Shown here: positions 6,344-25,925 of the stretch, piece by piece
Layout: every line of letters starts with the position of its first letter
Numbering within the stretch: the stretch's first letter is position 1
Source of the DNA: an uncultured Rubrobacteraceae bacterium
Lineage (GTDB): Bacteria; Actinomycetota; Rubrobacteria; Rubrobacterales; Rubrobacteraceae
NCBI GenBank assembly: GCA_902805975.1
Contig: CADCUT010000116.1
Span: forward strand, 1-33,914
Reading direction: 5' to 3'
Length of the DNA stretch: 33,914 bases
Made by a program: the position numbers and the translations under genes
The notes under the pieces: generated by a model
Database searches by the model: none
The model's input: only the letters and a program-made list of their open reading frames with translations
What the model was told of the DNA's origin: nothing

Positions 6344-6480
6344 GGTCCTCCTCTCGTTTTTCCCCTGAAGATAGAAGTATATAGAGGCCGCGGAAGAGCC
6401 GCCGCCGCGCCCGTTGGCGTAGAATGTGGCGCTCGGTCCCGCACGCCGTCCGGCCGCCGGAAGGGGAGACTTTGAACGAG
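6344..6480. promoter_or_regulatory. Divergent intergenic region between acyl-CoA synthetase and GH38 genes
   Basis: This 137-bp gap separates divergent genes, so both promoters should lie here. On the minus strand a TATACT box (plus-strand AGTATA, 6376-6381) is a good -10 candidate for the synthetase. On the plus strand TAGAAT at 6420-6425 is a -10-like box for the mannosidase. It overlaps the first possible ATG (6424), which argues that translation starts further downstream. No convincing -35 hexamer was found for either. Confidence 0.35.
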
Positions 6481-9400
6481 ATGGACGCCCGGCGCCTGGA
6501 GCGCCTAGAGCGCCGCGTCGAGGAGCTCGGCCTGTGGCGCAACGCCCTTGAGAGCCCCGTGGAGGGCTGGCGGTTCGCCGCCGGGGGAGGCGAGATCTTC
6601 AAACTCGACGTCGGCGACTTCTGGCCCGAGCCCGCCGTGCCGGCGCACCTCTGGGCCGAGACGCGGGTGCCGGAAGGCTGGGCCGGCCTCCCGGTCGAGC
6701 TGGAGCTCTGGCTCGGGGGCGAGGGCTTCGTCCGGCTCTCGACCGAGGCGAGCGGCGGCCTCAACCCCTTCCACAAGAGCTTCCCGGTCACGGGTGCTGC
6801 GGAGGGCGGTGAGACGGTCGAGGTAGAGGCCGAGGTCGTCCCAAGGGGGCCCTTCGGCACGAGCGTCGCCGAGCCGCGCATCGGGCGGGCCGCGCTCGTC
6901 GTGCCGGAGACCGGGGCACGGGGTCTGGAGAGGGACCTGGCGCTCGTTCTGGAAGTCTGCGCCCAACTCGGAGACCGCGAGGTAGTGCCGCACCTGCTGG
7001 ACATTGTCGAGGCGGTCTTCGCGCACCTCTCTTCCACCTGGCCCACCGGCACCGACGTGTCGCTTACCCGCTACCTCGGGAAGTTCCCTGAGTACACCGA
7101 CGGTGGGCCGTGGAGCCTGCCACCGGCGCCCCGACCGGTGGAGCCGCTGCCGGAAGGGGCGCGGCGGGCGGTGGCCGAGGCTCGCGCGATGGCCGCCGCA
7201 AGGTTGGAGGAGTTGAAGGAAGAGTATCCTCCGGTCGGGCGCATCGCGATGACGGGGCACGCGCACCTCGATCTCGCGTGGCTCTGGCCCGTTTCGGAGA
7301 CCTTGCGGAAGGGGCGCAGGACGTTCGCGAGCGTGCTCTCCCTGATGGACCGTTACGAGGACTTCGTGTTCAACCAGTCATCGGCGCAGCTCTACGCCTG
7401 GATCGAGGACGAGGCGCCCGACCTCTTCGAGCGCGTGCGCCGGCGCGTCGCGGAGGGCCGCTGGGAGCCGGTCGGCGGGATGTGGGTCGAGCCGGACTGC
7501 CAGATCCCCTCTGGCGAGTCCATCGTCCGCCAACTCCTCTACGGGCAGGAGTACTTCCAGGACCGCTTCGGGCGGCGCTCGAAGGTCGCCTGGCTGCCCG
7601 ACACCTTCGGCTTCTCGCCCGCCGTGCCCCAGCTCCTGCGGGGGGCCGGAATAGATGGGTTCTTTACCTACAAGCTCAACTGGAGCGAGGCGAACCGCTT
7701 CCCCCGCGACCTCTACGAGTGGGAGGGCCTCGACGGCAGCACGGTCACGGCCCACCACTTCGACAACCCCGGCCAGGACTACAACGGCAACGTCCGTCCG
7801 CTCGACCTCTTCGGCACCTGGAAGAACTTTGTGGGCAAGCGTCGCCACCCCGAGACCCTCTTCTCCTTCGGCTGGGGCGACGGCGGCGGCGGTCCAACCG
7901 AGGAGATGCTCGAGAACTTCGCCCGCCTCAAAGGTTTTCCCGCCATGCCCCGCCTGCGCATGGCGATGGTCGAGGACTTCTTCGACGGGCTCCCGAAGAC
8001 GGGCCTCCCGAGGTGGACCGGCGAGCTCTACCTAGAGCTCCACCGCGGTACCCTGACCACCCAGGCGAAGGTCAAGAAGCTCAACCGCGAGGCCGAGCAC
8101 CGCCTGCTGGAGGCAGAGGCGCTCCTCACCCTGGCCTCCCTGCGCGGCGCAGCCTACCCCGCCGACGAGTTGGAGGCAGCCTGGAAGACGCTCCTCCTCA
8201 ACCAGTTTCACGACATCCTGCCCGGCACCTCCATCCGCGAGGTCTACGAGGTGACGCACGGAGAACTAGAAGGCGTGGTCCACACCGCCGAAAAGCTGCG
8301 CGACGGCGCCCTCCCGGCGGGTGACGACCCGGACGAGACGCCGGTCCTCCTCGTCGCCAACGCCTCCCTGAACCCGCGACCCCTCACCGTCCTGCTCGGC
8401 GGAGAAGCCGCGCGGGGCGTCACGGACGCTGGGGGAGAGCCCCTCCCGGCGCAGAGGACCGAAAACGGGGGCCTGCTCGTCCACGACCCGGGGCGCGCGG
8501 TGCCGGGCCTCGGCTGGACGGCGCTGCGGAAGGCGGGCTGTACCCCCTTAGAACCCGCGCCGGGCGTCCGGGCGGAGAGGGACGGCTTCGGCGTCGTGAT
8601 CGAGAACGGCCTGCTGCGCGTGGAGGTCGGGGCAGACGGTACGCTCCACCGCGTCTTCGATCGAGAGTCCGGCAGGGAGGTTCTCGCCGGGAGGGCGAAC
8701 GCGCTCTGGGCTTACACGGACAAGCCGCGCAACTGGGAGGCCTGGGACGTGGAGGAGGGCTACGAGAGGGAGGGAGAGGAGATCCCGGCGGACAACATCG
8801 AGGTGGTCGAGGAGGGGCCGCTGCGCGCCTCCGTGCGCGTCACCCGCCGGTGGCGAGGTTCGAGCATCGTCCAGACGTACCGTCTCCTCTCGGGGTCGCG
8901 GCGGCTGGACGTGGAGACGTGGGTCGACTGGCACGAGCGGCGGGTCTTGCTCCGCGCCCTCTTCCCCCTGAACGTCCGCTCGCACGAGGCGACCTCGGAG
9001 ACCATGTTCGGGGCCCAGCGCCGCCCGACGCACGGGAACACGGGCTGGGACGCGGCCCGCTTCGAGACCTCGGCGCACCGCTTCTGCGACCTCTCCGAGC
9101 CGGGCTACGGCGTCGCGCTCTTGAACGACGGCAAGTACGGCCACAGCGCGAAGGGGAACGTGCTCGGCATCAGCCTGCTCAGGAGCCCGCTCTACCCGGA
9201 CCCTCTGGCGGACGAGGGGGAGCACCGCTTCACCTACGCCCTCTACCCGCACCCCGGCGACTGGACGCAGGCTGGTGTCGTCCGCGAGGCGTTCGCCCTC
9301 AACAGCCCGCTCGTACCGGCCAGGGGCGGCGGAGCGTTGGCCGGGTCGTCTTTCGTGGAGACCGAAGGCCTCGAACTCGCGCTCGCGGGGCTCAAGAGGT

Positions 9401-9618
9401 CCGAGGACGGGCTGGCCGTGATCCTGCGCCTCTACGAGCCCCACGGCGCCCGCGGCCGGACCAGGCTGCGCTTCCCAGGGGGACTCCAAGCGGCCGAAAA
9501 GACCAACCTCCTTGAGGATCGGGAAGGATCAACCGTCCAGGTGGACGGGGACGCCATCGAACTCGAAGTCCGGCCTTTCGAGGTGGTGACGCTGCGCCTG
9601 GAGCCGGGAACGGGTTAG
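6481..9618 (+). CDS. Alpha-mannosidase, glycoside hydrolase family 38
   Basis: This protein of about 1045 residues is a retaining, zinc-dependent alpha-mannosidase that removes terminal alpha-mannose. With numbering from ATG 6481, GHAHLDLAW supplies zinc ligands His262 and Asp264. WLPDTFGF supplies the nucleophile Asp374, and NQFHDILPGTS supplies the last zinc ligand, His577. The long C-terminal half is the beta-sandwich region typical of bacterial GH38. No signal peptide is visible, so it should act in the cytosol on imported oligosaccharides. The start is uncertain. ATG 6424 lacks a ribosome site and overlaps a -10-like box. TTG 6472 and ATG 6481 both lie behind GGAAGGGGAG (6459-6468), at tight and loose spacing respectively; I chose the ATG. 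Confidence 0.93.
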   Translation: MDARRLERLERRVEELGLWRNALESPVEGWRFAAGGGEIFKLDVGDFWPEPAVPAHLWAETRVPEGWAGLPVELELWLGGEGFVRLSTEASGGLNPFHKSFPVTGAAEGGETVEVEAEVVPRGPFGTSVAEPRIGRAALVVPETGARGLERDLALVLEVCAQLGDREVVPHLLDIVEAVFAHLSSTWPTGTDVSLTRYLGKFPEYTDGGPWSLPPAPRPVEPLPEGARRAVAEARAMAAARLEELKEEYPPVGRIAMTGHAHLDLAWLWPVSETLRKGRRTFASVLSLMDRYEDFVFNQSSAQLYAWIEDEAPDLFERVRRRVAEGRWEPVGGMWVEPDCQIPSGESIVRQLLYGQEYFQDRFGRRSKVAWLPDTFGFSPAVPQLLRGAGIDGFFTYKLNWSEANRFPRDLYEWEGLDGSTVTAHHFDNPGQDYNGNVRPLDLFGTWKNFVGKRRHPETLFSFGWGDGGGGPTEEMLENFARLKGFPAMPRLRMAMVEDFFDGLPKTGLPRWTGELYLELHRGTLTTQAKVKKLNREAEHRLLEAEALLTLASLRGAAYPADELEAAWKTLLLNQFHDILPGTSIREVYEVTHGELEGVVHTAEKLRDGALPAGDDPDETPVLLVANASLNPRPLTVLLGGEAARGVTDAGGEPLPAQRTENGGLLVHDPGRAVPGLGWTALRKAGCTPLEPAPGVRAERDGFGVVIENGLLRVEVGADGTLHRVFDRESGREVLAGRANALWAYTDKPRNWEAWDVEEGYEREGEEIPADNIEVVEEGPLRASVRVTRRWRGSSIVQTYRLLSGSRRLDVETWVDWHERRVLLRALFPLNVRSHEATSETMFGAQRRPTHGNTGWDAARFETSAHRFCDLSEPGYGVALLNDGKYGHSAKGNVLGISLLRSPLYPDPLADEGEHRFTYALYPHPGDWTQAGVVREAFALNSPLVPARGGGALAGSSFVETEGLELALAGLKRSEDGLAVILRLYEPHGARGRTRLRFPGGLQAAEKTNLLEDREGSTVQVDGDAIELEVRPFEVVTLRLEPGTG

Positions 9619-9653
9619 GATACGCTCCTGGAGGCGAGTGAAGGGGCTGGGGT

Positions 9654-10529
9654 ATGGAACACAGGCGTTTGGGACGGTTGGGGCGGGAGAATGGCGTACT
9701 CATCTTCGGGGGCGCCGCCCTCGGGGAAGCAACCGAAGAGGCGGCCGACACCGCCATCCAGCAGGCGCTCGACGCCGGGGTCGACCACTTCGACACGGCC
9801 GCCGACTACGGCGATTCGGAGCTGCACTACGGGCGCTGGATGCCGGAGATCAGGGACAGGATCTTTATCTCCACCAAGACCGGCGACCGGGACGGGGACG
9901 CCGCGCGGCGGTCCATAGAGCGCTCCCTGGATCGGTTGCAGGTCGACTTTGTGGACCTGATACAGCTTCACGCCATAGGCGACCTCGAAGACCTCGACCG
10001 GGCGACGGGACCGGGTGGCGCTCTGGAGGCCGCCATTCAGGCCAGAGAAGAAGGCCTCGTGGGCGCCATCGGCATTACCGGCCACGGCCACGAGGCCCCC
10101 GCGACCCACCTCGAAGCCCTCTCCCGCTACCCGTTCGACACCGTCCTGACCCCCTGGAACTTTATCCTCTCCACCGACGAGGACTACCGCCGGGATTACG
10201 AGGCCCTTGTACGGGAGATAAAGCGCCAGGACACAGGTCTCATGACCATAAAGACCATCTCCAGGCGCAACTGGCCCGAGGGCGACCCGACGGGCGACCA
10301 GAGGTACACCACCTGGTACGAGCCCTTCGACCAGCAAGAATACGTGGACGCCGCCGTCTCCTTCGTCCTCTCCTACGAGGAGATCACCGGCATAGCCATG
10401 GTCGGCGACGTGACCCTCGTGCCGATGATGCTGGAAGCGGAGGGCCGCAGAATGCCCCGCGAAGAGGCCGAGAAGGTCCTCGCCGCCGCCCCGAACCACT
10501 CCTCGCCGTTCATCTCGGTGCCCTTCTGA
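9654..10529 (+). CDS. Aldo/keto reductase family oxidoreductase
   Basis: This 291-residue TIM-barrel oxidoreductase would interconvert carbonyls and alcohols with NAD(P)H. The complete catalytic tetrad can be read as Asp47, Tyr52, Lys75 and His106, in [13 protein letters not shown] and QLHA. The C-terminal third departs from the classic NADP-binding end. It lacks the usual S-x-x-N/IPG pattern and ends in a segment around [10 protein letters not shown], which resembles the shorter aldo/keto reductase-like group. It lies 35 bp after the mannosidase gene on the same strand, so co-transcription is likely. Substrate unknown. Confidence 0.87.
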
Positions 10530-11155: not shown

Positions 11156-12157
11156 GTGAGCCGGGTGCGCTGGGGGGTGCTGGGAGCCGGTAGCATCGCC
11201 GGCCGGTTCGCCGAAGCCCTCGCCGCCCTGCCGCAGGCCGAGACGCTCGCGGTCGGATCCCGCTCCGGGGACACCGCCGACCGCTTCGCCGAAGCCCACG
11301 GCTTTCCCCGCGCCTACCCGAGCTACGAGAAACTCGCCGCCGACCCCGACGTGGACGTCGTCTACGTCGCAACACCCCACCCCTTCCACGCCGAGAACGC
11401 GGAGCTTTGCCTGCGGGCCGGTAAGGCGGTGCTCTGCGAGAAGCCCTTCACCGTCAACGCCGCGGAGGCCCGCAGGCTCGTCGGGCTCGCCAGGGAGAGG
11501 GGCCTGTTCCTGATGGAGGGCATGTGGACGCGTTTCTTTCCCCTGATGGGGAGGCTGCGGCGGATGCTCTCGGAGGGTGCCTTGGGAGAGCCCCGGATGC
11601 TAACGGTGGACTTCGGCTTCAGGGCTGAGATGGACCCGGCCTCGCGCCTGTTCGACCCGAAGCTCGGCGGGGGCGCCATGCTCGACGTGGGAGTCTACTG
11701 CGTCTCGTTCGCCTCGATGGTGCTCGGCAGGCCGATTCGGGGGACGGGGTTGTCGCACCTTGGGGAGACCGGGGTCGACGAGCAGTTCGCCGCCACCTTG
11801 GAGCACGGGGAGGGCCGGCTCTCCGCCATCACCGCCGGCACCCGCACCGCCTCGCCGCACGAGGCGACGGTCCTCGGGACGGAGGGATACGCGAGGATAC
11901 ACAGCCCCTGGTGGCAGCCCGACGCGATGACGATCTCGCGGCCCGGCCGCGAGGACGAGGTCGTGAGGGAGCCCACCGAGGAGAACGGCTTCAGGTACGA
12001 GGCCGCGGAGGTGATGCGGTGCCTGCGGGCGGGGGAGGTGGAGAGCCAGATCATGCCGCTGGACGAGACCGTCTCCGTGATGGAGACGATGGATGAGATC
12101 CGGGCCGCCTGGGGCCTGCGTTACCCCGGCGAGGAGGAGAGCCCGGCGGGGCGTTAA
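11156..12157 (+). CDS. Gfo/Idh/MocA family sugar oxidoreductase (module A, first dehydrogenase)
   Basis: This 333-residue NAD(P)-dependent dehydrogenase has a Rossmann glycine motif GVLGAGSIA at about 7-15 and the family's CEKPF motif with Lys96. The C-terminal alpha/beta domain contains GGGAMLDVGVYCVSFA, where the usual catalytic D-x-G-x-H is D-V-G-V-Y. That form is seen in the dihydrodiol-dehydrogenase-like branch of the family. The start is placed at GTG 11156, directly ahead of the first beta strand. The upstream ATG 11081 would add 25 residues with no fold role and has no better ribosome site. It opens a group with an isomerase, a second dehydrogenase and a ThuA-like protein. Substrate unknown; a sugar or cyclitol is likely. 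Confidence 0.9.
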   Translation: MSRVRWGVLGAGSIAGRFAEALAALPQAETLAVGSRSGDTADRFAEAHGFPRAYPSYEKLAADPDVDVVYVATPHPFHAENAELCLRAGKAVLCEKPFTVNAAEARRLVGLARERGLFLMEGMWTRFFPLMGRLRRMLSEGALGEPRMLTVDFGFRAEMDPASRLFDPKLGGGAMLDVGVYCVSFASMVLGRPIRGTGLSHLGETGVDEQFAATLEHGEGRLSAITAGTRTASPHEATVLGTEGYARIHSPWWQPDAMTISRPGREDEVVREPTEENGFRYEAAEVMRCLRAGEVESQIMPLDETVSVMETMDEIRAAWGLRYPGEEESPAGR

Positions 12158-12171
12158 GCTGTAAGAACGGC

Positions 12172-12190
12172 CGCGGTCTCGCGGACCGCG
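12172..12190 (+). other. Intergenic hairpin between module A dehydrogenase and isomerase
   Basis: Arms CGCGGTC (12172-12178) and GACCGCG (12184-12190) form a perfect 7-bp stem with a 5-nt loop. It lies in the short gap upstream of the isomerase ribosome site. No T-tract follows. It may set relative expression inside the operon or protect the mRNA. Confidence 0.4.
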
Positions 12191-12217
12191 TGGGAGATGC
12201 GAAGAGGAGGGCGTACT

Positions 12218-13219
12218 TTGGCAAGGCCGGTAACGCTGTTCACGGGGCAATGGGCTGACCTGCCGCTCGAAGAGCTCGCCAGCAAGTGCGGCGGCTGGGG
12301 CTTCGACGGGCTGGAGCTCGCGTGCTGGGGGGACCACTTCGACGTCGACCGGGCGCTCTCGGAGGACGGCTACGTCGAGAGCAGGTGGGAGATCCTGCGA
12401 CCTAACAACCTGGGTTGCTGGGCCATAAGCAACCACCTCGTCGGCCAGGCCGTCTGTGATCCTATAGACGACCGTCACAGGGCCACCCTTCCCCCGGAGG
12501 TCTGGGGCGACGGGGACCCCGAGGGCGTCCGGACCAGGGCCGCCGAGAAGATGAAGGACACCGCGAGGGCCGCCGCGAAGGCCGGGATTACGCAGGTCAA
12601 CGGCTTCTCCGGCTCCGCCATCTGGCATCTGCTCTACTCGTTCCCGCCCAACGACCCGGCCGAGATAGAGCGCGGCTACGAGGACTTCGCTAGACGCTGG
12701 AACCCCATCATCGACGTCTTCGACGCCGAGGGGGTCAGGTTCGGCCTTGAGGTCCACCCGACCGAGATCGCCTACGACTTCGTCACCACGAAGAAGGCGC
12801 TGGACGCCATCGGCAACCGGCCCGGCTTCGGCATCAACTTTGACCCGAGCCACCTCGCCCACCAGTTCCTCGACTCGGCGGCGTTTATCGCGGAGTTCGC
12901 CGACAGGATCTACCACTTCCACATAAAGGACTCGAAGAAGAGGCTCGACGGCCGCAGGAGCATCCTTGGCTCCCACCTCGACTTCGGGGCGGCCGAGCGC
13001 GGCTGGGACTTCGTCTCGCCGGGGCACGGCGACGTGGACCTGGAACAGTGCGTGCGGTCGCTGAACCGCATCGGCTACGAAGGGCCGCTCTCCATAGAGT
13101 GGGAGGACTCGGGGATGGACCGCGAGTACGGGGCCCAGGACGCGCTCGCCTTCGCCCGGCGCACGGACTTCGCCCCGTCGGCCCAAGCCTTCGACGCCGC
13201 GTTCGCGAGGGGGGAGTAA
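12218..13219 (+). CDS. Sugar phosphate isomerase/epimerase-like TIM barrel (module A)
   Basis: This 333-residue protein is of the xylose-isomerase-like/AP-endonuclease-2 superfamily (IolE relatives). Candidate divalent-metal ligands are Glu178 and His180 in LEVHP, Asp209 and His212 in FDPSH, His235 in HFHIKD and Glu294 in SIEWED. The N-terminus ([18 protein letters not shown]) and the insertion around the WGDGDPEG segment mark a subfamily longer than ordinary 250-280-residue members. The start is TTG 12218 with AGGAGG (12205-12210) at 7-nt spacing; the earlier ATG 12197 lies upstream of that site. The following dehydrogenase gene overlaps by one base (TAATG). Known relatives act on keto-sugars as epimerases, isomerases or, in C-glycoside cleavage, as lyases. 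Its reaction here is not known. Confidence 0.9.
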
Positions 13220-14355
13220 TGGCCGGGATCGGGGTGGGCCTCGTCGGCTACAAGTTCATGGGCCGCGCCCACTCCAACGCCTACCGCCAGCTCCCCCGCT
13301 TCTTTGACGTGGACCCGGCGCCGCGCATGGCCGCCATCTGCGGCCGGGACGAGGCGGGCGTCAGGGAGGCCGCGAATACCTTGGGCTGGGAATCCTACGA
13401 GACGGACTACCGCAGGCTTATCGAGCGCGACGACGTTGGCCTCGTGGATGTCGTTACGCCGGGGAACACGCACCGCGAGATCGTGCTTGCCGCCCTCGGG
13501 GCCGGAAAGCACGTGATCTGCGAGAAGCCGCTCGCCAACTCTTTAGCCGAAGCCGGGGAGATGCTCGACGCCGCGCGCGAGGCCGGAACCATAAACACCG
13601 TGTGCTTCAACTACCGGCGGGCTCCGGCGGTCCAGCTGGCGAAGAAGCTCATAGATGAGGGGCGTCTCGGGACCATCCGGCACTGGCGCGCGGCGTACCT
13701 GCAAGACTTCATCATGGACCCTGGGTTTCCCCTGATCTGGCGCCTCAAAAAGGAGCTGGCCGGATCTGGCGCTTTAGGTGACATAGGCGCCCACAGCGTC
13801 GACCTCGCCCACTTCCTCGTCGGCGGCATCTCCGAGGTCGTCGGCATGACGGAGACGTTCGTTAAGGAGCGTCCCCTCGAAGGATCCGACGGGGAGACGG
13901 GCGAGGTTACGGTGGACGACGCGGCGGCGTTTCTGGCGCGCTTCGACAACGGGGCGATGGGAACCTTCGAGGCGACGCGCTTCGCGGCGGGGCGGCGCAA
14001 CAAGAACGCGTTCGAGATCAACGGCTCCAGGGGCAGCGTCGCCTTCGACCTCGAACGCATGAACGAGCTCGAGGTGTTCTTCGTGGACGACGACGCGGAC
14101 GTGCAGGGCTTCAGGACGGTCAACGTAACGGAGCCGGGGCATCCCTTTGCCGGGGCCTGGTGGCCGCCGGGACACATCATCGGCTACGAGCACACCTTCG
14201 TGCACACGATGAAGGACCTCATGGACGGCATCGCGGCGGGGAAGAGCCCGGCCCCGACCTTCGAGGACGCGTACCGGTGCCAGGCGGTCCTCGACGCCGT
14301 GGAGCGGAGCGTCGAGGGCGGCGGATGGACGAAACCCGAGTTGGGGAGGATCTAG
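13219..14355 (+). CDS. Gfo/Idh/MocA family oxidoreductase (module A, second dehydrogenase)
   Basis: This 378-residue NAD(P)-dependent dehydrogenase has the Rossmann start [17 protein letters not shown] (about residues 6-22) and CEKPL with Lys103. The canonical catalytic segment [14 protein letters not shown] keeps both Asp and His. The [10 protein letters not shown] form of the nucleotide loop, with Tyr-Lys in place of the usual Gly-x, marks a distinct subgroup. The start is ATG 13219, which shares its first base with the isomerase stop codon and follows a GGGGGGAG ribosome site. A longer reading upstream would lie inside the isomerase gene and is rejected. The next gene also overlaps by one base, so the isomerase, this dehydrogenase and ThuA are tightly coupled. 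Probable role: sugar or glycoside oxidation at a ring hydroxyl. Confidence 0.93.
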
Positions 14356-15074
14356 TGGAGGAAGCCCTGCGCGTCACGGTCTGGAACGAGTTCAGGCACG
14401 AGAGGGAGAACGAGGAGGTCGCCAAGATCTACCCCGAGGGCCTCCACGCCACCCTCGCCGGCGCCCTGGGCGAGAGCGGCTTCGACGCCCGCACGGCCAC
14501 CCTCGACGAGCCCGAGCACGGGCTGACCGAGGAGGTCCTGGGCTCGACAGACGTGCTCCTGTGGTGGGGCCACATCGCCCACGAGGAGGTCTCGGATGCG
14601 GTGGTGGACCGGGTACACGAGCGGGTCCTCGGCGGGATGGGCCTCATAGTGCTCCATTCGGGCCACTTCTCAAAGATCTTCAAGAAGCTCATGGGCACGA
14701 CCTGCGACTTGAAGTGGCGCCACGACGACACCGAACGCCTCTGGGTGGTCGCCCCCGGCCACCCCATAGCCGAGGGCATCGGCGAGTACATCGAGCTTGA
14801 AGAGGAGATGTACGGGGAGCACTTTGACGTTCCCGAGCCGGACGAGCTCGTCTTCGTGAGCTGGTTCGGCGGGGGCGAGGTCTTCAGGAGCGGGCTCTGC
14901 TACCGGCGCGGCGCGGGACGCATCTTCTACTTCCGCCCCGGCCACGAGGAGAACCCCTCCTACCACAACCCGGACGTGCTCCGCGTCATAGCAAACGCCG
15001 TTCGCTGGGCCGCCCCGACGTCCGGCGCAACACCGACCTACGGCCACACGGAGCCGCTGGAGAAGAGGTTCTAG
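14355..15074 (+). CDS. ThuA-like protein (module A)
   Basis: This 239-residue protein of the ThuA family has a flavodoxin/class I amidotransferase-like fold. Family marks are the N-terminal [11 protein letters not shown], then [24 protein letters not shown], a middle [13 protein letters not shown] and a C-terminal [11 protein letters not shown]. The start is GTG 14355, overlapping the dehydrogenase stop by one base (TAGTG), with GGGGAGGA at 14343-14350. In rhizobia ThuA works with the dehydrogenase ThuB on 3-keto-disaccharides made from trehalose, maltitol or sucrose. A similar partnership with the adjacent dehydrogenase is a reasonable inference. A repeat-borne terminator follows immediately. 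Confidence 0.9.
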
Positions 15075-15187
15075 GTTCGAGGTCGCCCGCTCCGCGGGCT
15101 TTTAGGCCCTAGAATCGCGCTGTCGAGACCCCGCCCCGCCAACCACCCCTAGAACCTAGAGCCTAAAACCTAGAGCCTAAAACCTAC
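15072..15187 (+). repeat. Intergenic repeat element, copy A (about 112 bp)
   Basis: This copy starts at the TAG stop of the ThuA gene (TAGGTTCGAGG) and ends near CCTAAAACCT. It contains a hairpin with a T-run and two tandem copies of the 14-mer CCTAGAGCCTAAAA (15155-15168 and 15169-15182). An inverted homologous copy lies at 31887-32000, sharing the ends, the hairpin, an identical GACCCCGCCCC core and the ACCCCTAGAACCTA segment. The rough ends TAGGTT and AACCTA are themselves inverted. The element also forms the leader of the next gene up to its ribosome site. It looks like a dispersed REP/MITE-type element; there is no coding capacity. Confidence 0.7.
15085..15103 (+). terminator. Hairpin with T-run after the module A genes
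   Basis: GCCCGC (15085-15090), loop TCC, GCGGGC (15094-15099), then TTTT (15100-15103): a perfect 6-bp GC stem with a short T-run, 11 bp after the ThuA stop. This is the best intrinsic terminator in the window, and it would separate module A from module B. Confidence 0.65.
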
Positions 15188-15202
15188 AACGAGGAGGATC
15201 TC

Positions 15203-16312
15203 TTGCAGAGCCAGGATTCGAGAACTATGCGCGTCGGTGTGGTCGGCCTCGGTTACGCCGGCGAGCAGCACTTGAAGAACTTCGTAAAGATGCCGAACGT
15301 GGAGGCCGTCGCCCTGGCCGGGCTGGAGGAGGAGCGTCTCGCGCGGCTCGGCGGGCAGTACGGGGTGGCGAACCTCTACAGGAGTTGGGAGAACCTTGTA
15401 GCCCGCGACGATCTCGACGTGGTGAGCATCGGGGCGCCGAACCACCTGCACGCGCCCATCGCCATCGCGGCGCTTAGAGGGGGCAAGCACGTGCTCTGCG
15501 AGAAGCCGCTGGCGCGGACGGGGGTCGAGGCGGAAGGGATCGTGCGGGCCGCTAAAGAGGCAGACAGGGCGGTTCACATAGCCTTCACGCAGCGCGAGCG
15601 GGGGGACGTGCAGGCGCTCAAGCGGCACGTGGAGGAGGGGAACCTGGGCAGGATCTACCACGCCAAGGCAACCTGGATGCGCCGCAACGGAATCCCCGGC
15701 ATGGGCGGCTGGTTTACCAGCAAGGAGATGGCCGGCGGCGGTCCCCTCATAGACCTCGGCGTCCACATGGTCGACATGGCCCTCTTCTTGATGGGGAACC
15801 CGGTGGTAGAGAGCGTGAGCTGCGCCACCTACGCCGAGCTCGGTCCCCGGGGCCGGGGTGGTTGGGAGGGCATCGGGGTGATGGCCGGCGAAGACGCCTA
15901 CGAGGTAGAAGACCTCGCCACCGCCTTTATCCGCCTCTCCGGCGGGGCGACCCTTAACCTGGAGACCGGCTGGGCGGTCTACCGCGAGTCGAGCGACGAC
16001 TTCGGCGTGACCCTCTACGGCACCGACGGCGGCGCCGAGATGAAGGTCAAGAACTACGGCACCCGCGACACCGTCCGGATCTACACCGACGTAGCAGGAG
16101 TCCCGGCCGTGGTCATACCCGAGATAGAGCCGCGCGAGGGGCACTTCGCCGTCGTCCGCCGCTTCGTGGAGACCATCCGCGGCGGCGAATGGGCCGGACA
16201 GCACGGCGAAGACGGCCTTGATAGGGCCCGCATCATAGACGCCTGCTACGCCTCCGCCCTCCAGAACCGCGAGGTCTCCCTGCGGGAGGTCGCCGAGGAG
16301 GAGGCCGTATGA
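15203..16312 (+). CDS. Gfo/Idh/MocA family oxidoreductase (module B, first dehydrogenase)
   Basis: This 369-residue dehydrogenase has the Rossmann motif [14 protein letters not shown] (about 11-24), CEKPL with Lys101 and the catalytic segment [15 protein letters not shown] with Asp and His retained. The start is TTG 15203 with AGGAGG at 15192-15197. Nine residues precede the first beta strand; ATG at residue 9 is an alternative. It overlaps the following ThuA-like gene by 4 bp (ATGA), which indicates translational coupling. It differs clearly in sequence from the module A enzymes, so the modules are not recent duplicates. The substrate is probably a sugar or sugar derivative. Confidence 0.93.
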
Positions 16313-16953
16313 AGTCCGCGCTCTTCGTCTGCGGCGGCTGGGAGGGCCACGAGCCCGAGAAGTGCGCCCGCATCTTCGCGCCTTTCCTGGAGGACAACGG
16401 CTACGAGACCGAGATCTCGACCACCCTCAACTCCTACCTCGACGGGGAGAAGCTGCGCTCGCTAGACCTGATCGTCCCGATCTGGACGATGGGAACCATC
16501 ACCGAAGGGCAGGAGCGGGGTCTCATCGGCGCCGTCGAGGACGGGGTCGGCCTCGCCGGCTGGCATGGCGGCATGGCCGACTCCTTCCGCGAGAGCATCC
16601 GCTACCAGTTCATGGTCGGCGGCCAGTGGGTCGCCCACCCGGGCGACATCATCGATTACGAGGTCAACATCACGGACCACGAAGACCCCATAACCGCCGA
16701 TCTTCGGGACTTTGGGATGCACTCCGAGCAGTACTACATGCACGTGGACCCCGCCAACAAAGTACTCGCCACCACGACCTTCTCCGGCGAGCACACGCCC
16801 TGGATCTCGGGCAACACCATCCCGGTAGTCTGGAAGCGGAAGTGGGGTGAGGGCCGCGTCTTCTACAGCTCTCTGGGCCACGTGGCAAAAGACTTCGACG
16901 TGCCAGAGGCGAGAACGCTCGTCGAGCGCGGCATGCTGTGGGCGAGCAGATGA
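16309..16953 (+). CDS. ThuA-like protein (module B)
   Basis: This 214-residue ThuA-family protein is predicted to fold like a class I glutamine amidotransferase, without the glutaminase Cys-His pair in the usual place. Visible segments are [17 protein letters not shown] at the N-terminus, [37 protein letters not shown], and [12 protein letters not shown] near the end, which is the most conserved ThuA tail. It is shorter than the module A homologue and belongs to a different branch. The ATG overlaps the dehydrogenase stop. A nested hairpin starts at its own stop codon. Confidence 0.9.
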
Positions 16954-16999
16954 GGGGGCGTCGGGCCTCGGCCAACGGCCGTCGGGCCTTCGCCCCCTC
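16952..16999 (+). terminator. Nested stem-loop overlapping the ThuA stop codon
   Basis: The outer arms GAGGGGGCG (16952-16960) and CGCCCCCTC (16991-16999) pair perfectly over 9 bp. Within the 30-nt interior, CGGCC and GGCCG (16969-16973 and 16977-16981) form a second stem, and GTCGGGCCT occurs twice (16960-16968 and 16981-16989). No T-tract follows. This may be a weak terminator or a processing/stability element splitting module B. Confidence 0.45.
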
Positions 17000-17030
17000 T
17001 GAAGGCCGCAACCTCTAGAGCGAAACCCGC

Positions 17031-17040
17031 GAGGGGAGGA
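17031..17040 (+). promoter_or_regulatory. Ribosome site without a standard start codon
   Basis: GAGGGGAGGA is a strong ribosome-binding sequence. No ATG, GTG or TTG lies at normal distance in the reading frame of the next gene. Two ATC codons do, at 17044 and 17047, and the second is at the 7-nt spacing used by other genes here (12218, 19714). Confidence 0.6.
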
Positions 17041-17046
17041 AGCATC

Positions 17047-18156
17047 ATCGAGAACCAGCCGGTAAAGATCGGAGTGATGGGGGCGGGCAAGATCAGCGGC
17101 ATCTACCTGCAAAACGGCGCGATCTACGACGGCCTGGAGGTCGTCGCCGTCGCAGACCTGCTCGTCGAGCGGGCCGAGGAGCAGGCGCGGGCCCATGGGG
17201 TGCCTCGGGCCTGCAGCCCGGAGGAACTCTTCGCCGACCCCGAGGTCGAGGTCGTCCTGAACCTGACGGTGCCGGCGGTCCACGCCGAGGTTTCCCTGGC
17301 GGCGCTGGAGGCCGGCAAGCACGTCTACACGGAGAAGCCGCTGGCCGTGGACCGCGGGGACGGAGAGAAGATGCTCGCGGCCGCGACCGACGGGGGGCTC
17401 CTGGTCGGCTGCGCCCCGGACACCTTTCTCGGCGGCGGCCTCCAAACGTGCCGCAAGGTCCTGGACGAGGGGATCATCGGGGAGCCGGTCGCGGTTACGG
17501 CCGTCATGATGACCCACGGCCCGGAGGACTGGCACCCCAACCCGGACTTTTTCTACCAGCCCGGCGCCGGGCCCATGTTCGACATGGGTCCTTACTACCT
17601 GACGGCGCTCACTACGCTGCTAGGTCCCGTGCGGCGGGTAAGCGGGTCGGCGCGGGCGACGTTCCCGGAGCGCGAGATCACGAGCCAGCCCCTCGCGGGC
17701 ACCATGATCACGGTCAACACCCCGACCCACGTCGCGGGCGTGATGGACTTCGAGGGCGGCGCCGTCGGCACGCTCGTAACGAGCTTCGACGTCTGGTCGG
17801 AGGAGCACTCCCGCATCGACATCTACGGCACGGAGGGCACCCTGAGCGTCCCCGACCCCAACACCTTCGGCGGCCCGGTGCGCGTCTGGAGGTCCGGCGA
17901 TGACTCCTGGACGGACGTGCCGCTTACCCATCCGTACACCGAGAACAGCCGCGGCCTGGGCCTCGCGGACATGGCCCAGGCCCTGCGGTCCGGCAGGAAG
18001 CACCGCGCCAGCGGCGAGCTCGGCGGACACGTCCTCGACGTGATCCACGCCTTTCTCGATTCCTCCGCGGGCGGCCGGCACGTCGAGGTGGAAAGCACCT
18101 TCGATCGTCCGGAGCCGCTGACGGCGGGAGAGAAGGTCTTCGGAGGCGCCTCGTGA
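17047..18156 (+). CDS. Gfo/Idh/MocA family oxidoreductase (module B, second dehydrogenase), probable ATC start
   Basis: This protein of about 369 residues has the Rossmann strand [21 protein letters not shown] in place of the usual C-E-K-P, and a C-terminal domain. In the catalytic position it reads [11 protein letters not shown], so the common catalytic His is replaced by Tyr, as in a recognised branch of the family. The first standard starts are GTG 17074 and ATG 17077, but those would cut off the first beta strand of the nucleotide-binding fold. The reading frame is open upstream to the ribosome site at 17031-17040, with ATC codons at 17044 and 17047. I place the start at ATC 17047 by spacing and fold. 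Either a rare ATC start is used or an ATG was lost by one substitution. The next gene overlaps by 4 bp (GTGA). Confidence 0.85.
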
Positions 18157-18905
18157 GAAGGGACCAGATCTCACTCCAGCTCTACACCGTCCGCGAGCAT
18201 ACGGCCCGGGACCTGCCGGACACCCTGCGCCGCCTCGCCGGCATGGGCTACGCGGCCGTAGAGTTCGCCGGTTTCGGCGGCCTCTCCACGCGAGATTTGC
18301 GCCCCGTCCTGGACGACCTCGGCCTCCGGGCCTCCGGCGCCCACGTACCCCTCGAAGACTGGGAGACGGACCCGGGGGGCGTGATCTCGGACCTGCACAC
18401 CTTAAACTGCGCCCACGCCGTCGTACCCATCCTCCCACCAGACCGCCGGGACGGAGCCGAAGTCTCTCGCCTCGCGGAGAGCTTCAACCGCTGGGGCGGG
18501 GCCTGCCGCGCGGAGGGCATCACCCTCTCTTACCACAACCACGACTTCGAGTTCGCCCGATCGGGCGATGCCACCCTTTGGGAGGCGCTCGTCAGCGAGA
18601 CCGACCCCGACCTTGTTCATCTGGAGCTCGACCTGTACTGGATCAAGTACGGTGGCACCGACCCGGAGGCCGTGCTGCGCGACGTGGGCCACCGCGTCTC
18701 CCTCGTCCACCTCAAGGATATGGCCCCGGATGCGACGAGGTCCGACCTGCCCGTCGGCGAGGGCACCATGCCGTGGCCGGAGCTTCTGCGGACAGCGGAC
18801 GAGCTCGGCGTCGAATGGTACGTAGCGGAACAGGACAACCCGAGGGACGCGATGGCGGACGTCGAGGTCAGCCTCCGCAGCCTTGAAGGACTGGCGGAGG
18901 GTTAG
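18153..18905 (+). CDS. Sugar phosphate isomerase/epimerase-like TIM barrel (module B)
   Basis: This 250-residue protein of the xylose-isomerase-like superfamily has the compact form. Candidate metal and active-site residues are His128 and His130 in YHNHDFEF, Glu158 in LELDLYW, His186 in VHLKDM and Glu226 in VAEQD. The [11 protein letters not shown] loop is typical of the keto-sugar isomerase/epimerase branch, to which E. coli YcjR (a 3-keto-hexoside epimerase) also belongs. The start is GTG 18153, overlapping the dehydrogenase stop. Together with the adjacent dehydrogenase it is a plausible oxidise-then-epimerise pair; the actual substrate is unknown. Confidence 0.92.
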
Positions 18906-18908
18906 CGT

Positions 18909-19512
18909 GTGGCGTACTTTCTCAAGGACGACGCCCTGATCGAGGCCTACGGCATACCCGTCGACGAGTACGTCCGGCGCAGCGGGGAGAACCTGAAGGC
19001 CTACGCCCAGACGCGCCGCAGGCTGCTCGCGGGCGGGGAGTTTTCGCTGGACCGCAGCGTCGAGTACGGCTCGCTCATCGTCCACTCGATGACCACGGGC
19101 CGGGCTCGCGCCGTCTACGGCAACGTCAAGAACACCGGCCCCATAACGAACCTCCCGGACGGCTGCTGTGTCGAGGTGCCGGTCCTGGTGGACGGTACGG
19201 GCCTGCGCCCCCTGCCAGGCCGGCGATTTGCCGCCCCGGTGCGCCGCGACCTGCGCCCCGCACACCGCCGTCCGGAACCTGACCTTCCAGGCGGCGCTCG
19301 AAGGACGGCGGGACCACGTCCACCACGCGGCCATGCTCGCCAGGCACGCCCCGAGCGTGCTCTCCCTGGACGAGATAGCCGCCATAGACGACGAGCTTAT
19401 CGTGGCCCACGGCGTCGCCATGCCAGAGGCGATAAGGGCGTCGGAGAGCCGGGCGGAGCGCCGCGGCGCTCGCCGCCCCTCGTCCTCAACGACCCGGGCC
19501 TCTGCCCCTTGA
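18909..19512 (+). pseudogene. GH4 glycosidase remnant (alpha-galactosidase/alpha-glucosidase type), 5'-truncated and frameshifted
   Basis: This is the C-terminal part of a family 4 glycosidase of the NAD- and metal-dependent MelA-like class. The segment VEYGSLIVHSMTTG, then GNVKNTGPITNLPDGCCVEV, continues as AGDLPP and VRNLTFQAALEG, LSLDEIAAIDDELI in the +1 frame. The frame changes at the five-C run 19208-19212, consistent with one extra base. The whole NAD-binding N-terminal part (roughly the first 270 residues of MelA) is absent, because the fragment begins 3 bp after the isomerase stop. It therefore cannot be active even if the frameshift were a sequencing error. From about 19445 to 19709 the sequence no longer resembles GH4. 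One frame stays open to 19709, with a tail around GHWQGGPIFGRLKDQ that I do not recognise. Confidence 0.85.
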
Positions 19513-21747: not shown

Positions 21748-21787
21748 GGGCAGGCCCCCCGGTCCCGCTGACAGGGGCGTGACTGGA

Positions 21788-22420: not shown

Positions 22421-22554
22421 GCCCGCTCCTTTCGAGCAGCCGACCCCCGCTTCGAGGAGTGGCGGGCCCCGGTGTCGTGGGACGACCGGACCATCCCGGC
22501 AGCGGGCGGGTCCTCTCTCTCCCGCGGCTACGCCTTTGTCCGCAAAAGGCCGCC

Positions 22555-22832: not shown

Positions 22833-24140
22833 GTGCAACGCAAGTGGAGTCGTGGGACGTTTCTAAAGGTGGGTGGGGGCGTTTCCGTGGCGGCGCTGCT
22901 GGGGGGTTGCGGCGGCTTCGGCGTGGGGCAGAGCACCGGCGGCTTGGGCGGTGGGGTCACGATCTGGGAGATCAGCACCGGCATAGAGAAGGCGTCGCTG
23001 CTGGAGGAGCTGGCGCGGTTCAACGAGGAGCATCCCGGTGTTGACGCGAAGATGCAGTTCTTCGAGAACGACCCCTACAAGCAGAAGCTCCGGGTGGCCA
23101 TGGGCGCGGGCAACCCGCCGGACGTGTTCTACAGCTGGGGTGGGGGCAACCTAGAATCCTACGTGGACGCGGGCAAGGTCTACGATCTGTCGGAGGCGCT
23201 GGAGAATGACCCGGACTGGGGCGAAGAGTTCTTGCCCAACGTCATGGAGGGTGTCACCTTCGACGGCAAAGCCTACGGCGTGCCCGTAACCGACGTGCAG
23301 CCGAACTGCGTCTTCTACAATAGGGCGATCTTCGAGGAGTACGGGCTGTCCCCGCCCGAGACGTTCGATGGGCTCAAGGACGTCATAAGCGCGCTCAAGG
23401 GTGAGGGCGTGATCCCCATAGCCCTCGGCGGGCAGAGCAAGTGGACGTATATGATCTGGATGCAGCAGCTCGTCCTGCGCGTCGGCGGCGCCGCGCCTTT
23501 TGACAGGGTGATCCGGGGCGAGACGAACGCGTGGTCGGACCCCGCGTTCGTCGAGGCGGGCACCATGCTCCAGGATCTGGTGCGAATGGGCGCCTTCGAG
23601 GAGGGCTTCGCGGGCGTCAGCTTCGACACGGGGCAGGCGAGCGCCCTCCTGAACACGGGCACGGCCGCCATGCACCACATAGGCGTCTACGACTACGAGA
23701 ACCACCTCACCGCCAACCCCGACTTTGTGGAGAACAAGCTCGGTTGGTTCAGGTTCCCCGCCGTCGGGGGCGAGGACCCCGTGGACGCCTCGGGCAACCT
23801 TGCCAACTTCTACTCCGTCTCCCGGGCCTCGAAAAACAAAGAGGAGGCCATAACCTTCCTCAAGGAGGGAACCTTGAGCGTCGAAACCCGCATAAAGAAC
23901 GGCGCGGTCCCTCCAGTTAAGGGCATAGAGCCCCGGTTGGAGGAGGCGGAGAACAGCAGTTGGCTGTCGTTCGTCTACGACCTGGTGAAGGGGGCGCCCA
24001 ACTACCAGCTCTCCTGGGACCAAGCCCTCAGCCCCGTGCTGGCGGAGAGGCTGTTGGTCAACCTGGAGCAGATGGTGCTGCTGGCGTCGGCCCCCAAAGA
24101 TTTCTCCGCGGCTATGAACGAAGCGATGAGGGAGGCGTAA
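22833..24140 (+). CDS. Sugar ABC transporter substrate-binding lipoprotein
   Basis: This 435-residue extracellular solute-binding protein (family 1, MalE-like) should capture an oligosaccharide and deliver it to the two permeases that follow. The N-terminus carries a lipoprotein signal with a lipobox LGGC and lipidated Cys26. The preceding SRGTFLK looks like a twin-arginine motif whose second Arg has become Gly. Core marks are the N-terminal VTIWEIS, GNPPDVFYSWGGG, YGVPVTDVQPNCVFYN and WIQQ-like YMIWMQQL. The GTG start has GGAAGGAGGA just upstream. Predicted ligands are plant or bacterial glycans cut by the neighbouring GH1, GH5 and GH42; this is inference from context. Confidence 0.94.
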   Translation: MQRKWSRGTFLKVGGGVSVAALLGGCGGFGVGQSTGGLGGGVTIWEISTGIEKASLLEELARFNEEHPGVDAKMQFFENDPYKQKLRVAMGAGNPPDVFYSWGGGNLESYVDAGKVYDLSEALENDPDWGEEFLPNVMEGVTFDGKAYGVPVTDVQPNCVFYNRAIFEEYGLSPPETFDGLKDVISALKGEGVIPIALGGQSKWTYMIWMQQLVLRVGGAAPFDRVIRGETNAWSDPAFVEAGTMLQDLVRMGAFEEGFAGVSFDTGQASALLNTGTAAMHHIGVYDYENHLTANPDFVENKLGWFRFPAVGGEDPVDASGNLANFYSVSRASKNKEEAITFLKEGTLSVETRIKNGAVPPVKGIEPRLEEAENSSWLSFVYDLVKGAPNYQLSWDQALSPVLAERLLVNLEQMVLLASAPKDFSAAMNEAMREA

Positions 24141-24143
24141 GAC

Positions 24144-25034
24144 GTGGCGCAACGCCTGACTCCGGCGACGGTATTGATGTTGGTCCCGGCGGCACTGTTC
24201 TTTTTCCTTTTCGCCCTGGGACCCATGGTTGTCGCCGCCGGAATAAGCTTTCTGGATTGGAACGGCGTCTCGGAGCCGACGTGGGTCGGCCTCTCCAACT
24301 GGGCGGACACGTTATCGGATTCGCTCACCTTGCGCTCCGTCTTCCTTACGGTGGCGCTCATGATCCTCAACTGGCTCATACAGACACCCTTGAGCCTCTT
24401 GATCGGGGTGTACCTGGCCGGGCACCAGGGGTACCGCGCGGTGCTCGGGGTGTTCTACTTTCTCCCGCTGCTCTTCTCGGCGGTGGCGGTCGGGATCACC
24501 TGGCAGTACATCCTCGACCCGAACCTCGGGGCGCTCAACACGGCGCTGGAGGCCGCCGGCCTCGACGCGTTCGCCCGGACCTGGCTCGGCGACCCCAACC
24601 TGGCGCTGATCGTGGTGGTGCTCGTCATCTCCTGGCAATTCATCCCTTTCCATACGCTGCTCTACCAGGCCGGGGCGCGCCAGATACCGCCGGTGCTCTA
24701 CGAGGCGGCCCGGATAGACGGCGCCGGAACCTTCGCGCGCTTCTTCTACATCACCCTGCCGCAGCTCAAGTACACGATCGTCACTTCCTCCATCCTGATC
24801 TTCACCGGCTCGCTCACGTACTTCGACCTGATCTACATAATGACCGAGGGCGGCCCCGGCTACTCGACGAGGATACTGCCGCTCCACCAGTACCTCACCG
24901 CCTTCCAGGAGTTGCGCTTTGGCCCCGGGAGCGTCATAGCCATCGTCTTGGCGATCTTCGGCATATCGCTCTCCATCGTGCTGCTCAAGCTGACGGGGTA
25001 CGGAAAGATGGAGAGCCAGGCAGAGGGACTGTAA
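24144..25034 (+). CDS. Sugar ABC transporter permease, MalF type
   Basis: This 296-residue inner-membrane permease of the carbohydrate uptake class 1 family is predicted to have six membrane spans. The first is LMLVPAALFFFLFALGP. The EAA loop that contacts the ATPase reads YEAARIDGAGTFARFFYITLP. The GTG start follows the binding-protein stop by 3 bp. It forms a heterodimer with the next gene product. No ATPase gene is present in the operon, so a shared MsiK/MsmK-type ATPase encoded elsewhere is expected. Confidence 0.95.
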   Translation: MAQRLTPATVLMLVPAALFFFLFALGPMVVAAGISFLDWNGVSEPTWVGLSNWADTLSDSLTLRSVFLTVALMILNWLIQTPLSLLIGVYLAGHQGYRAVLGVFYFLPLLFSAVAVGITWQYILDPNLGALNTALEAAGLDAFARTWLGDPNLALIVVVLVISWQFIPFHTLLYQAGARQIPPVLYEAARIDGAGTFARFFYITLPQLKYTIVTSSILIFTGSLTYFDLIYIMTEGGPGYSTRILPLHQYLTAFQELRFGPGSVIAIVLAIFGISLSIVLLKLTGYGKMESQAEGL

Positions 25035-25046
25035 AGGGGGAGAAGA

Positions 25047-25925
25047 ATGGCCGCAAACGTAGAGTCGGTGGGGACAACGAGCGGTACCGGCAAGGCGACC
25101 CGAAGGCGCCGGCGGAGGCGGGAGGTCGTGCCGGTCCTCCTCGGCCTCGTATGGCTGTTCGTCGCCTTCTACCCGGTGCTCTTCATGCTGGGCGCGAGCC
25201 TCAGGACGCAGGAGTCCTTTCTGGGGGGGAGCGCGTGGCTGCCGCCCCTGAGGCCCACCTTCGAGAACTACGCGCTGGTCTTGAGCAGCGGCTTCTGGCT
25301 GTATTTGCTCAACAGCGTGGTCGTCGTGGCGGCGAGCGTGCTCCTCATCGTCGCCAGCTCGCTGCTTACGGCCTACGTCATAGCCCGCGTCAAGGGGCGG
25401 CTGGTGCAGGCGGTCTTCAACGTCTTCTTGCTGGGCCTCGCGATACCGCTGCAGGCCTCGATCATCCCGATCTACATCCTCATGATCCAGCTTGGCATCT
25501 ACGACACGCTGCTCGCCCTGGTCTTCCCCTTCGTCGCCTTCGGGATACCGCTGACGGTGCTGATCCTGGTCAACTTTATCCGCGACATCCCGAGGGAGCT
25601 CTACGAGGCGATGGTCATCGAGGGCGCTTCACACTGGCAGGTGCTCAGGGCCCTGGTGATACCGCTCTCGCGCCCGGCGCTGGTGACGGTGACGATCTAC
25701 AACGCCCTGCAGGTCTGGAACGGGTTCCTCTTCCCCCTTATCCTGACCCAGAGCCCGAACGTCCGCGTCCTGCCGCTGGCGTTGTGGACCTTCCGGGGGG
25801 AGTTCACCATCAACATACCGGCGATCATGGCGGCGGTCTTCCTGTCCTCGTTGCCCATCGTCTTCTTGTACATCGTGGCGCGCCGCCAGCTCCTGAGCGG
25901 CCTCACCGCCGGCTTCGGTAAGTAG
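25047..25925 (+). CDS. Sugar ABC transporter permease, MalG type
   Basis: This 292-residue partner permease has a basic N-terminal tail (ATRRRRRRREV), six predicted membrane spans and the EAA loop YEAMVIEGASHWQVLRALVIP. The C-terminus RRQLLSGLTAGFGK is the normal end of MalG-type permeases, which shows that the gene is complete. It starts at ATG 12 bp after the first permease, with GGGGGAGAAG upstream. The GH5 gene follows 47 bp downstream on the same strand. Confidence 0.95.
   Translation: MAANVESVGTTSGTGKATRRRRRRREVVPVLLGLVWLFVAFYPVLFMLGASLRTQESFLGGSAWLPPLRPTFENYALVLSSGFWLYLLNSVVVVAASVLLIVASSLLTAYVIARVKGRLVQAVFNVFLLGLAIPLQASIIPIYILMIQLGIYDTLLALVFPFVAFGIPLTVLILVNFIRDIPRELYEAMVIEGASHWQVLRALVIPLSRPALVTVTIYNALQVWNGFLFPLILTQSPNVRVLPLALWTFRGEFTINIPAIMAAVFLSSLPIVFLYIVARRQLLSGLTAGFGK

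Follow-up and report, generated by a model that had tools for sequence, protein, structure and literature searches.

According to two reports (PMC7676230, PMC10628242), sugars can be processed by oxidation at C3 and beta-elimination to 2-hydroxy-3-keto-glucal, which is then hydrated to 3-keto-glucose and finally reduced. The Bacillus smithii levoglucosan pathway (PMC7676230) follows this order through LgdA-LgdB1-LgdB2-LgdC, comprising two dehydrogenases (the levoglucosan dehydrogenase LgdA and the Gfo enzyme LgdC) and two dissimilar 'sugar phosphate isomerase' barrels, with a sugar ABC transporter nearby, and the AtOGE/AtHYD operon of Agrobacterium tumefaciens (PMC10628242) likewise holds a lyase and a hydratase branch. 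Here we analysed a 33,914-base stretch of DNA from an uncultured Rubrobacteraceae bacterium (referred to below as the window), which is an entire contig (CADCUT010000116.1) of a draft genome of 238 contigs and 82% completeness. It carries eight plus-strand genes encoding dehydrogenases, ThuA proteins and two dissimilar barrels, the latter resembling the Agrobacterium lyase and hydratase, and a sugar ABC transporter lies nearby as in Bacillus smithii. Because candidates for every step are recognisable among them, we read the block as a route of oxidation, elimination, hydration and reduction, and we consider it likely that the eight genes are one conserved catabolic set that breaks a glycosidic bond without a hydrolase.

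The original prediction divided these genes into two adjacent modules of the same composition, A1 (11156..12157), A2 (12197..13219), A3 (13219..14355) and A4 (14355..15074) in the one and B1 (15203..16312), B2 (16309..16953), B3 (about 17044..18156) and B4 (18153..18905) in the other. Open frames bear out all eight positions, and the predicted families hold as well, with four Gfo/Idh/MocA dehydrogenases (A1, A3, B1 and B3), two TIM barrels of PF01261 (A2 and B4) and two ThuA proteins of PF06283 (A4 and B2), all above the curated Pfam cut-offs. Start and stop codons overlap at four junctions, A2/A3 (13219), A3/A4 (14355), B1/B2 (16309-16312) and B3/B4 (18153-18156). The members are indeed no recent copies of one another, as the four dehydrogenases share 26-31% identity, the two barrels 29% and the two ThuAs 27%. 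The equivalence of the two modules did not survive: the barrels fall on different enzyme branches, the block is kept across the border between A4 and B1, and other loci carry four-gene sets that combine genes of both modules.

The barrel B4 is predicted to be a 3-keto-glycoside 1,2-lyase of the AtOGE type. Its nearest solved chain by sequence is the O-glycoside beta-eliminase AtOGE (8bvk, 102 bits), followed by 3l23, 3obe and 8tcd/8tcs/8tct. In the description of AtOGE (PMC10628242), His134 is the base and His132, Asp163, His189 and Glu233 are metal ligands; all nine mapped AtOGE positions are kept in B4, these five included, which by alignment would make His130 the base and His128, Asp160, His186 and Glu226 the metal ligands of B4. 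B4 has the HNH base/metal motif expected of a 3-keto-glycoside lyase of the TIM-barrel type. At the same positions in pairwise alignments, Escherichia coli YcjR is gapped at the HNH motif, and the first His is not kept in either IolE or AtHYD. In a barrel tree of 29 rows, B4 groups with AtOGE and related sequences (support 100/98), apart from IolE, the hydratases and YcjR, the last a long branch. The predicted B4 model (predicted local distance difference test score, pLDDT, 95) agrees with this placement, as its structural matches at ranks 1-9 are the 3-keto-beta-glucopyranoside-1,2-lyases 8tcr, 8tcd and 8tct of Alistipes and Bacteroides, AtOGE and the uncharacterised 3obe and 3l23, with tagatose epimerases and IolE from rank 10. 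The model matches the three Bacteroidota lyases, and identity to them is 23-26%. We take these lyases to belong to the Bacteroidota pathway of a Nature paper of 2024, and an Angewandte paper of the same year reportedly deals with the Agrobacterium route.

For A2, the other barrel, the nearest solved chains are 2zds (466 bits) and AtHYD (8ro4, 129 bits), which is deposited as 2-hydroxy-3-keto-glucal hydratase. A2 and AtHYD form a clade of moderate support (89/81), sister to the IolE group, and A2 shares all ten polar residues picked by eye from the AtHYD motifs. We therefore place A2 on the AtHYD/LgdB2 side of the family as a predicted 2-hydroxy-3-keto-glucal hydratase. By branch placement, A2 and B4 would be successive steps of one route and not alternatives.

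The dehydrogenases were placed in a tree of 57 rows (40 of the 87 Gfo sequences from 24 chosen loci of 80, 13 references and the four window genes), in which the placement of several long branches is uncertain. A3 falls in the levoglucosan dehydrogenase (LGDH) clade (99/99), sister to and outside the pair of LGDH and Klebsiella GFO1; its nearest solved chains are 4h3v (453 bits) and LGDH itself (6a3f, 323 bits), and it scores 395 bits against the NCBIfam levoglucosan dehydrogenase model NF052479, under the curated cut-off of 650. B1 groups with YcjS and DgpA (100/98) and is 31% identical to YcjS. B3 forms a clade of its own with Arthrobacter GFO1 (100/100), and A1, whose nearest solved chain is the dimeric dihydrodiol dehydrogenase 2o48 (246 bits), pairs with one Chloroflexota sequence (100/100). 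None of the four joins the Agrobacterium inositol-locus dehydrogenase, the one such enzyme in the tree, and the window proteins miss by far the curated inositol dehydrogenase and inosose dehydratase models as well as the NCBIfam UDP-N-acetylglucosamine 3-dehydrogenase model, the sole amino-sugar test. As far as this one reference and these curated models reach, the dehydrogenases fall outside the inositol and amino-sugar enzymes; a grouping with these would have told against the original prediction.

By their clades, A3 and B1 are the candidates for an NAD(P)-dependent C3 dehydrogenase, and we predict that A3 and/or B1 is a C3 oxidoreductase of a sugar or glycoside, B1 more specifically a glycoside 3-dehydrogenase. 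B3 is probably a keto-sugar reductase and A1 may be an auxiliary keto-sugar oxidoreductase; that A3 or B1 oxidises while B3 or A1 reduces is a guess from the clades. The first oxidation in the Agrobacterium operon is made by GlycDH, an enzyme of another family, whereas the window block has Gfo-type dehydrogenases only; we take GlycDH to be a GMC flavoprotein. Window matches to the models of the Bacteroidota dehydrogenases BT_2158 and BT_2159 are far below cut-off. B1 shares its clade with C-glycoside DgpA and E. coli YcjS, but there is no YcjR among the eight genes, nor did Pfam recognise a second C-glycoside-lyase subunit among them.

Taken in order, A3 and/or B1 would oxidise the C3 hydroxyl of a sugar with NAD+ (nicotinamide adenine dinucleotide), and B4 would, in a metal-dependent step, remove the C2 proton and expel the C1 substituent to give 2-hydroxy-3-keto-glucal. 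A2 would then add water to form 3-keto-glucose (or an epimer), which B3 and possibly A1 would reduce to the free sugar, returning NAD; the ThuA proteins A4 and B2 would act on keto-sugars somewhere along the route. Gene content, family and branch, the conserved barrel residues and synteny are observations; from them we infer the reactions, the directions of the dehydrogenases, the substrate and the role of ThuA. The general logic first proposed for the locus, in which a sugar hydroxyl is oxidised, the keto-sugar rearranged or cleaved and the product reduced again, is supported by these assignments. What had been described as two parallel versions appears instead as a single set that has one lyase-type and one hydratase-type barrel, and the suggestion of an undescribed pathway goes too far, since both the chemistry and the operon type are already published (PMC7676230, PMC10628242).

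The border between A4 and B1 is not a conserved border. Among eight relatives in the genus of the window, four (G020, G021, G022 and G024) hold A2-A3-A4-B1-B2-B3-B4 complete and in this order with A1 upstream; as in the window, A1 directly precedes A2 in G020, and it lies 1.3-2.1 kb off in the other three (1.3 kb in G021). The block is interrupted by contig ends in G018, G019 and G023, with B2 missing in G019, and B3 and B4 alone are seen in G017. Elsewhere in the comparison, G006 keeps A4-B1-B2-B3-B4 together; a Gfo gene and an aldo/keto reductase separate A4 from A1, and A2 lies on other contigs. The spacer between A4 and B1 measures 128 bases in the window and about 46 bases, by match ends, in the relative L054. 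A simple scan found no terminator-like site in this spacer, a promoter scan gave nothing and a terminator scan gave no more than shuffles do; compared with shuffles, the spacer has a somewhat better fold (z -1.9, 8/200). Conserved co-occurrence was found for one block, unbroken across the supposed border in four relatives, and for four-gene sets taken from both modules in Arthrobacter and two further loci described next.

On the Arthrobacter plasmid NZ_CP012477.1, four genes in a row, TIM1-GFO1-GFO2-TIM2, correspond to B4 (33% identity), B3 (45%), A3 (48%) and A2 (58%), and TIM1 keeps eight of the nine AtOGE positions. The same four-gene set occurs in the Actinomycetota loci L150 and L163, and G046, a genome of the window's phylum, has genes 77-90% identical to the plasmid operon. 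Seven of the eight genes (A1, A2, A3, B3, B4, B1 and A4) stand in one locus of another actinobacterium, L199, and an A1 homologue is present in L105 too. The Chloroflexota locus L125 reads A2-A3-B3-B2-GFO-A4, and in L198 homologues of the window's ABC transporter genes (39, 49 and 55%) are followed by A3-A2-B2-B3. In an A2-alignment scan of named genomes, limited to the best 80 of 592 loci, A2 adjoins an LgdA-type (32 loci) or an LgdC-type (19 loci) dehydrogenase in 51 of the 80, never both. We assigned these types by similarity to a Klebsiella plasmid locus, which we took as lgd-like because its GFO1 forms a pair with LGDH and 218 of 317 positions of its TIM2 are identical in AtHYD.

A search with B3 found a match in 23 of 396 genomes of the phylum, and 18 regions outside the genus were inspected; B3 is also present in 8 of 10 genomes picked from the A2 matches, a biased choice, and in 61 of 350 Chloroflexota genomes. 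For the 79 Chloroflexota matches listed, 40 regions were taken, together with five from other sampled genomes, and many of these 45 lack any of the block's partner genes. In the Rhodothermales loci L120, L156 and L165, near 6073-8788, the B4-type lyases begin, by eye, with an apparent Tat or lipoprotein signal that is not seen in the window's B4.

Several observations weigh against reading the block as a single route. In the 39 genomes of the window's family, A2 is present in 17, B4 in 11 and ThuA in 14, yet A2 occurs with B4 in 9, without it in 8, and B4 without A2 in 2. The space between A1 and A2 is filled by an aldo/keto reductase in G024 and G022, the latter with a further Gfo gene; among relatives, an aldo/keto reductase set between A1 and the remaining block genes is seen at L354:319-2339, L353:1414-2448 and L059:16142-18321, two of which have a fifth Gfo gene, an arrangement absent from the window. 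Neither dehydrogenase type is adjacent to A2 in 24 of the 80 loci mentioned above (the remaining 5 end at a contig edge), and 22 of 30 Chloroflexota B4-type loci show no Gfo gene within flanks of at most 1.5 kb. Compared with Bacillus smithii, the block has two ThuAs and two further dehydrogenases in addition; its four dehydrogenases exceed what the route requires. It lacks an LgdC-type reductase, as judged by the Klebsiella plasmid gene; because of this absence, the reductase step is assigned to B3 or A1 by exclusion. Of the ten AtHYD residues kept in A2, IolE keeps eight, so that the residue test separates poorly, and 2zds (8/10) and Arthrobacter TIM2 (9/10), both close to A2, have Asp in place of one His of AtHYD and A2. 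For these two reasons we are less certain that the A2 family as a whole are hydratases than that B4 is a lyase, and the His-to-Asp change, together with the extra genes between A1 and A2, slightly lowers our confidence in the single route.

An explanation closer to the original prediction is that two independent pathways lie side by side, each serving its own substrate with one barrel, two dehydrogenases and one ThuA. Sub-blocks do occur alone, as A2-A3-A4-B1 in G013, as A4-B1 in G005 and as B2-B3 and B3-B4 pairs elsewhere, and the eight family genomes with A2 and no B4 fit this explanation too; however, the sub-blocks of G013 and G005 span the supposed border, the barrels are of lyase and hydratase type and hence not alternatives, and the four-gene sets found elsewhere combine A2 and A3 with B3 and B4, two genes of each module. 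We rejected parallel duplicate modules as such on the barrel branch placement and the synteny, and we regard a pair of independent pathways as unlikely. The membership of B1 in the YcjS clade (100/98) could instead point to a gluco-to-gulo interconversion like that of E. coli YcjQRS, in which a glucoside is oxidised, epimerised and reduced with its bond uncleaved. The original prediction had invoked YcjR as a model for the barrels, but neither A2 nor B4 groups with the long YcjR branch in the tree, neither gives a blastp match to YcjR at E 1e-3, and YcjR has gaps at the AtOGE HNH motif, all of which speak against a YcjR-type 4-epimerase among the eight genes and led us to reject such an interconversion as very unlikely.

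Inositol or inosose catabolism with IolG- and IolE-like enzymes is the other explanation we weighed, as the IolE model is matched by A2 (41.5 bits) and B4 (49.6 bits) and the IolG model by A3 (112 bits), and the A2-AtHYD pair is sister to the IolE group. These scores are weak and far under the curated cut-offs (290, 355), the dehydrogenases stand apart from the Agrobacterium inositol-locus enzyme, and Pfam finds no IolB, IolC or IolD-type gene among the eight. With the cut-offs unreached and the dehydrogenase tree against it, we rejected inositol catabolism as highly improbable.

Within the one glycoside-cleaving set that we favour, the two ThuA proteins belong to different branches. A4 is 62% identical to the ThuA of S. 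meliloti pSymB, which identifies it as a ThuA orthologue, and B2 represents a distant branch (27% to A4). As in the rhizobial ThuA-ThuB pair, A4 lies beside a dehydrogenase; in contrast to that pair, B1 belongs to a clade other than ThuB (28% identity over 194 residues), so no ThuB orthologue adjoins A4, and the lyase and hydratase genes are additional. Six residues are invariant in six ThuAs of both branches (Glu12, His14, Glu15, His86, Glu140 and His191 in B2 numbering), and a ThuA His presumably sits where a glutamine amidotransferase would have Cys. The predicted B2 model is poor (pLDDT 65). No ThuA beyond A4 and B2 was found in the contigs of this 82% complete genome, and in the accessible parts of the literature found by searches on the subject no reaction is given for ThuA.

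The immediate neighbour of B3 in 63 loci is a B2-type ThuA in 15, a B4-type lyase in 14 and both in none; the chance of no overlap under independence is 0.013, with relatedness ignored. This exclusivity and the invariant His and Glu residues of both branches raise the thought that the ThuA proteins catalyse a reaction on 3-keto-glycosides themselves; they could, for instance, be another type of cleaving enzyme, unrelated to the first, with B2 acting alongside B3 or A4 alongside B1. We hold this to be unlikely; if true, it would give the ThuA family a defined reaction. The subgroups of B3 seem to follow the partner, which implies few independent events, B2 is missing from G019, and a distant homologue of the lyase lies on a separate contig of G396, to which L125 belongs. 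A replacement of the lyase by ThuA is weakly suggested by the neighbour counts; a strict replacement is broken by L327, where lyase, B3 and ThuA stand together, and the window's own genus also holds both around B3. The 24 Actinomycetota ThuA loci (L299-L322) mostly hold far-diverged ThuA-domain proteins, of which many lie within very long open frames, and tell little about partners, as 22 of them have no Gfo, lyase or hydratase gene within short flanks.

While the pathway type is known, what is new is a complete lyase/hydratase set kept as a block with four dehydrogenases and two ThuAs, the latter, from different branches, going beyond the published operons. Our literature search gave nothing relevant, in the accessible parts of its sources, on Rubrobacter with 3-keto sugars or levoglucosan. 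An actinobacterial genus keeps together a gene set known from a few operons, pieces of which occur in Chloroflexota, Planctomycetota, Rhodothermota and others, and a locus first seen as two similar sugar modules becomes one testable four-step route, in which the substrate of the two ThuA proteins can be guessed and assayed. Automatic labels such as sugar phosphate isomerase and Gfo/Idh/MocA oxidoreductase obscure this reading.

GH38, GH42, GH5 and GH1 genes and an importer surround the block in the window. By Pfam, a GH38 alpha-mannosidase and an aldo/keto reductase lie upstream on the plus strand (6424..10529), and an ABC sugar importer with a solute-binding protein and two permeases lies downstream on the same strand (22833..25925) and possibly supplies the substrate. 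GH38 and the aldo/keto reductase recur no more than about 6 kb from A1 in G021, G022 and G024, and GH38 matches adjoin B3 in L295 and L298 and lie further off in L256 and L197. Together, the GH genes and importer around the block and GH38 near B3 elsewhere hint that glycosides are taken up and processed intracellularly. Of the predicted association with hydrolytic glycosidases, the neighbourhood itself is there, but the tie is loose, as the block order is kept while the genes after B4 differ between relatives; in G024, none of three scanned downstream genes is a glycosidase or transporter. In Chloroflexota L295 (7404-9808 and beyond) and L298 (7532-13045), a B4-type lyase, B3 and GH38 matches stand side by side, a possible substrate lead. 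Right after B4, positions 18909-19461 hold the remnant of a GH4 glycosidase, its C-terminal part only and in two frames, and an intact GH4 is found in the relative L060 (5765-7156); GH4 enzymes perform the same four-step chemistry in a single protein.

B3 probably starts with ATC at 17044 or 17047. In the region 17030-17085, an ATC follows a Shine-Dalgarno-like GGAGG/AGGAG roughly where L059 and L054 have ATG, and the first listed start, GTG at 17074, would remove the first strand of the NAD domain. In a comparison of 16 loci, from which L032 and L198 were dropped for want of the motif, the ATC is present in six of eight family genomes (the window, L052, L057, L058, L060 and L061; L032 could not be read), the open frame of L061 has no ATG, GTG, TTG or CTG start, and some other homologues have a candidate start 20-27 codons upstream of the glycine motif.

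Three further features lie on the minus strand of the window. Pieces spread over different frames at 21620-22494 resemble, by eye, a LacI-type regulator that is probably degraded. The stretch 4100-4768 matches a PhzF-like protein in its N-terminal third only (model positions 8-104 of 281) and may be a fragment, and 115-4033 encodes a pair of Pnkp polynucleotide kinase-phosphatase-ligase and Hen1, an RNA repair operon.

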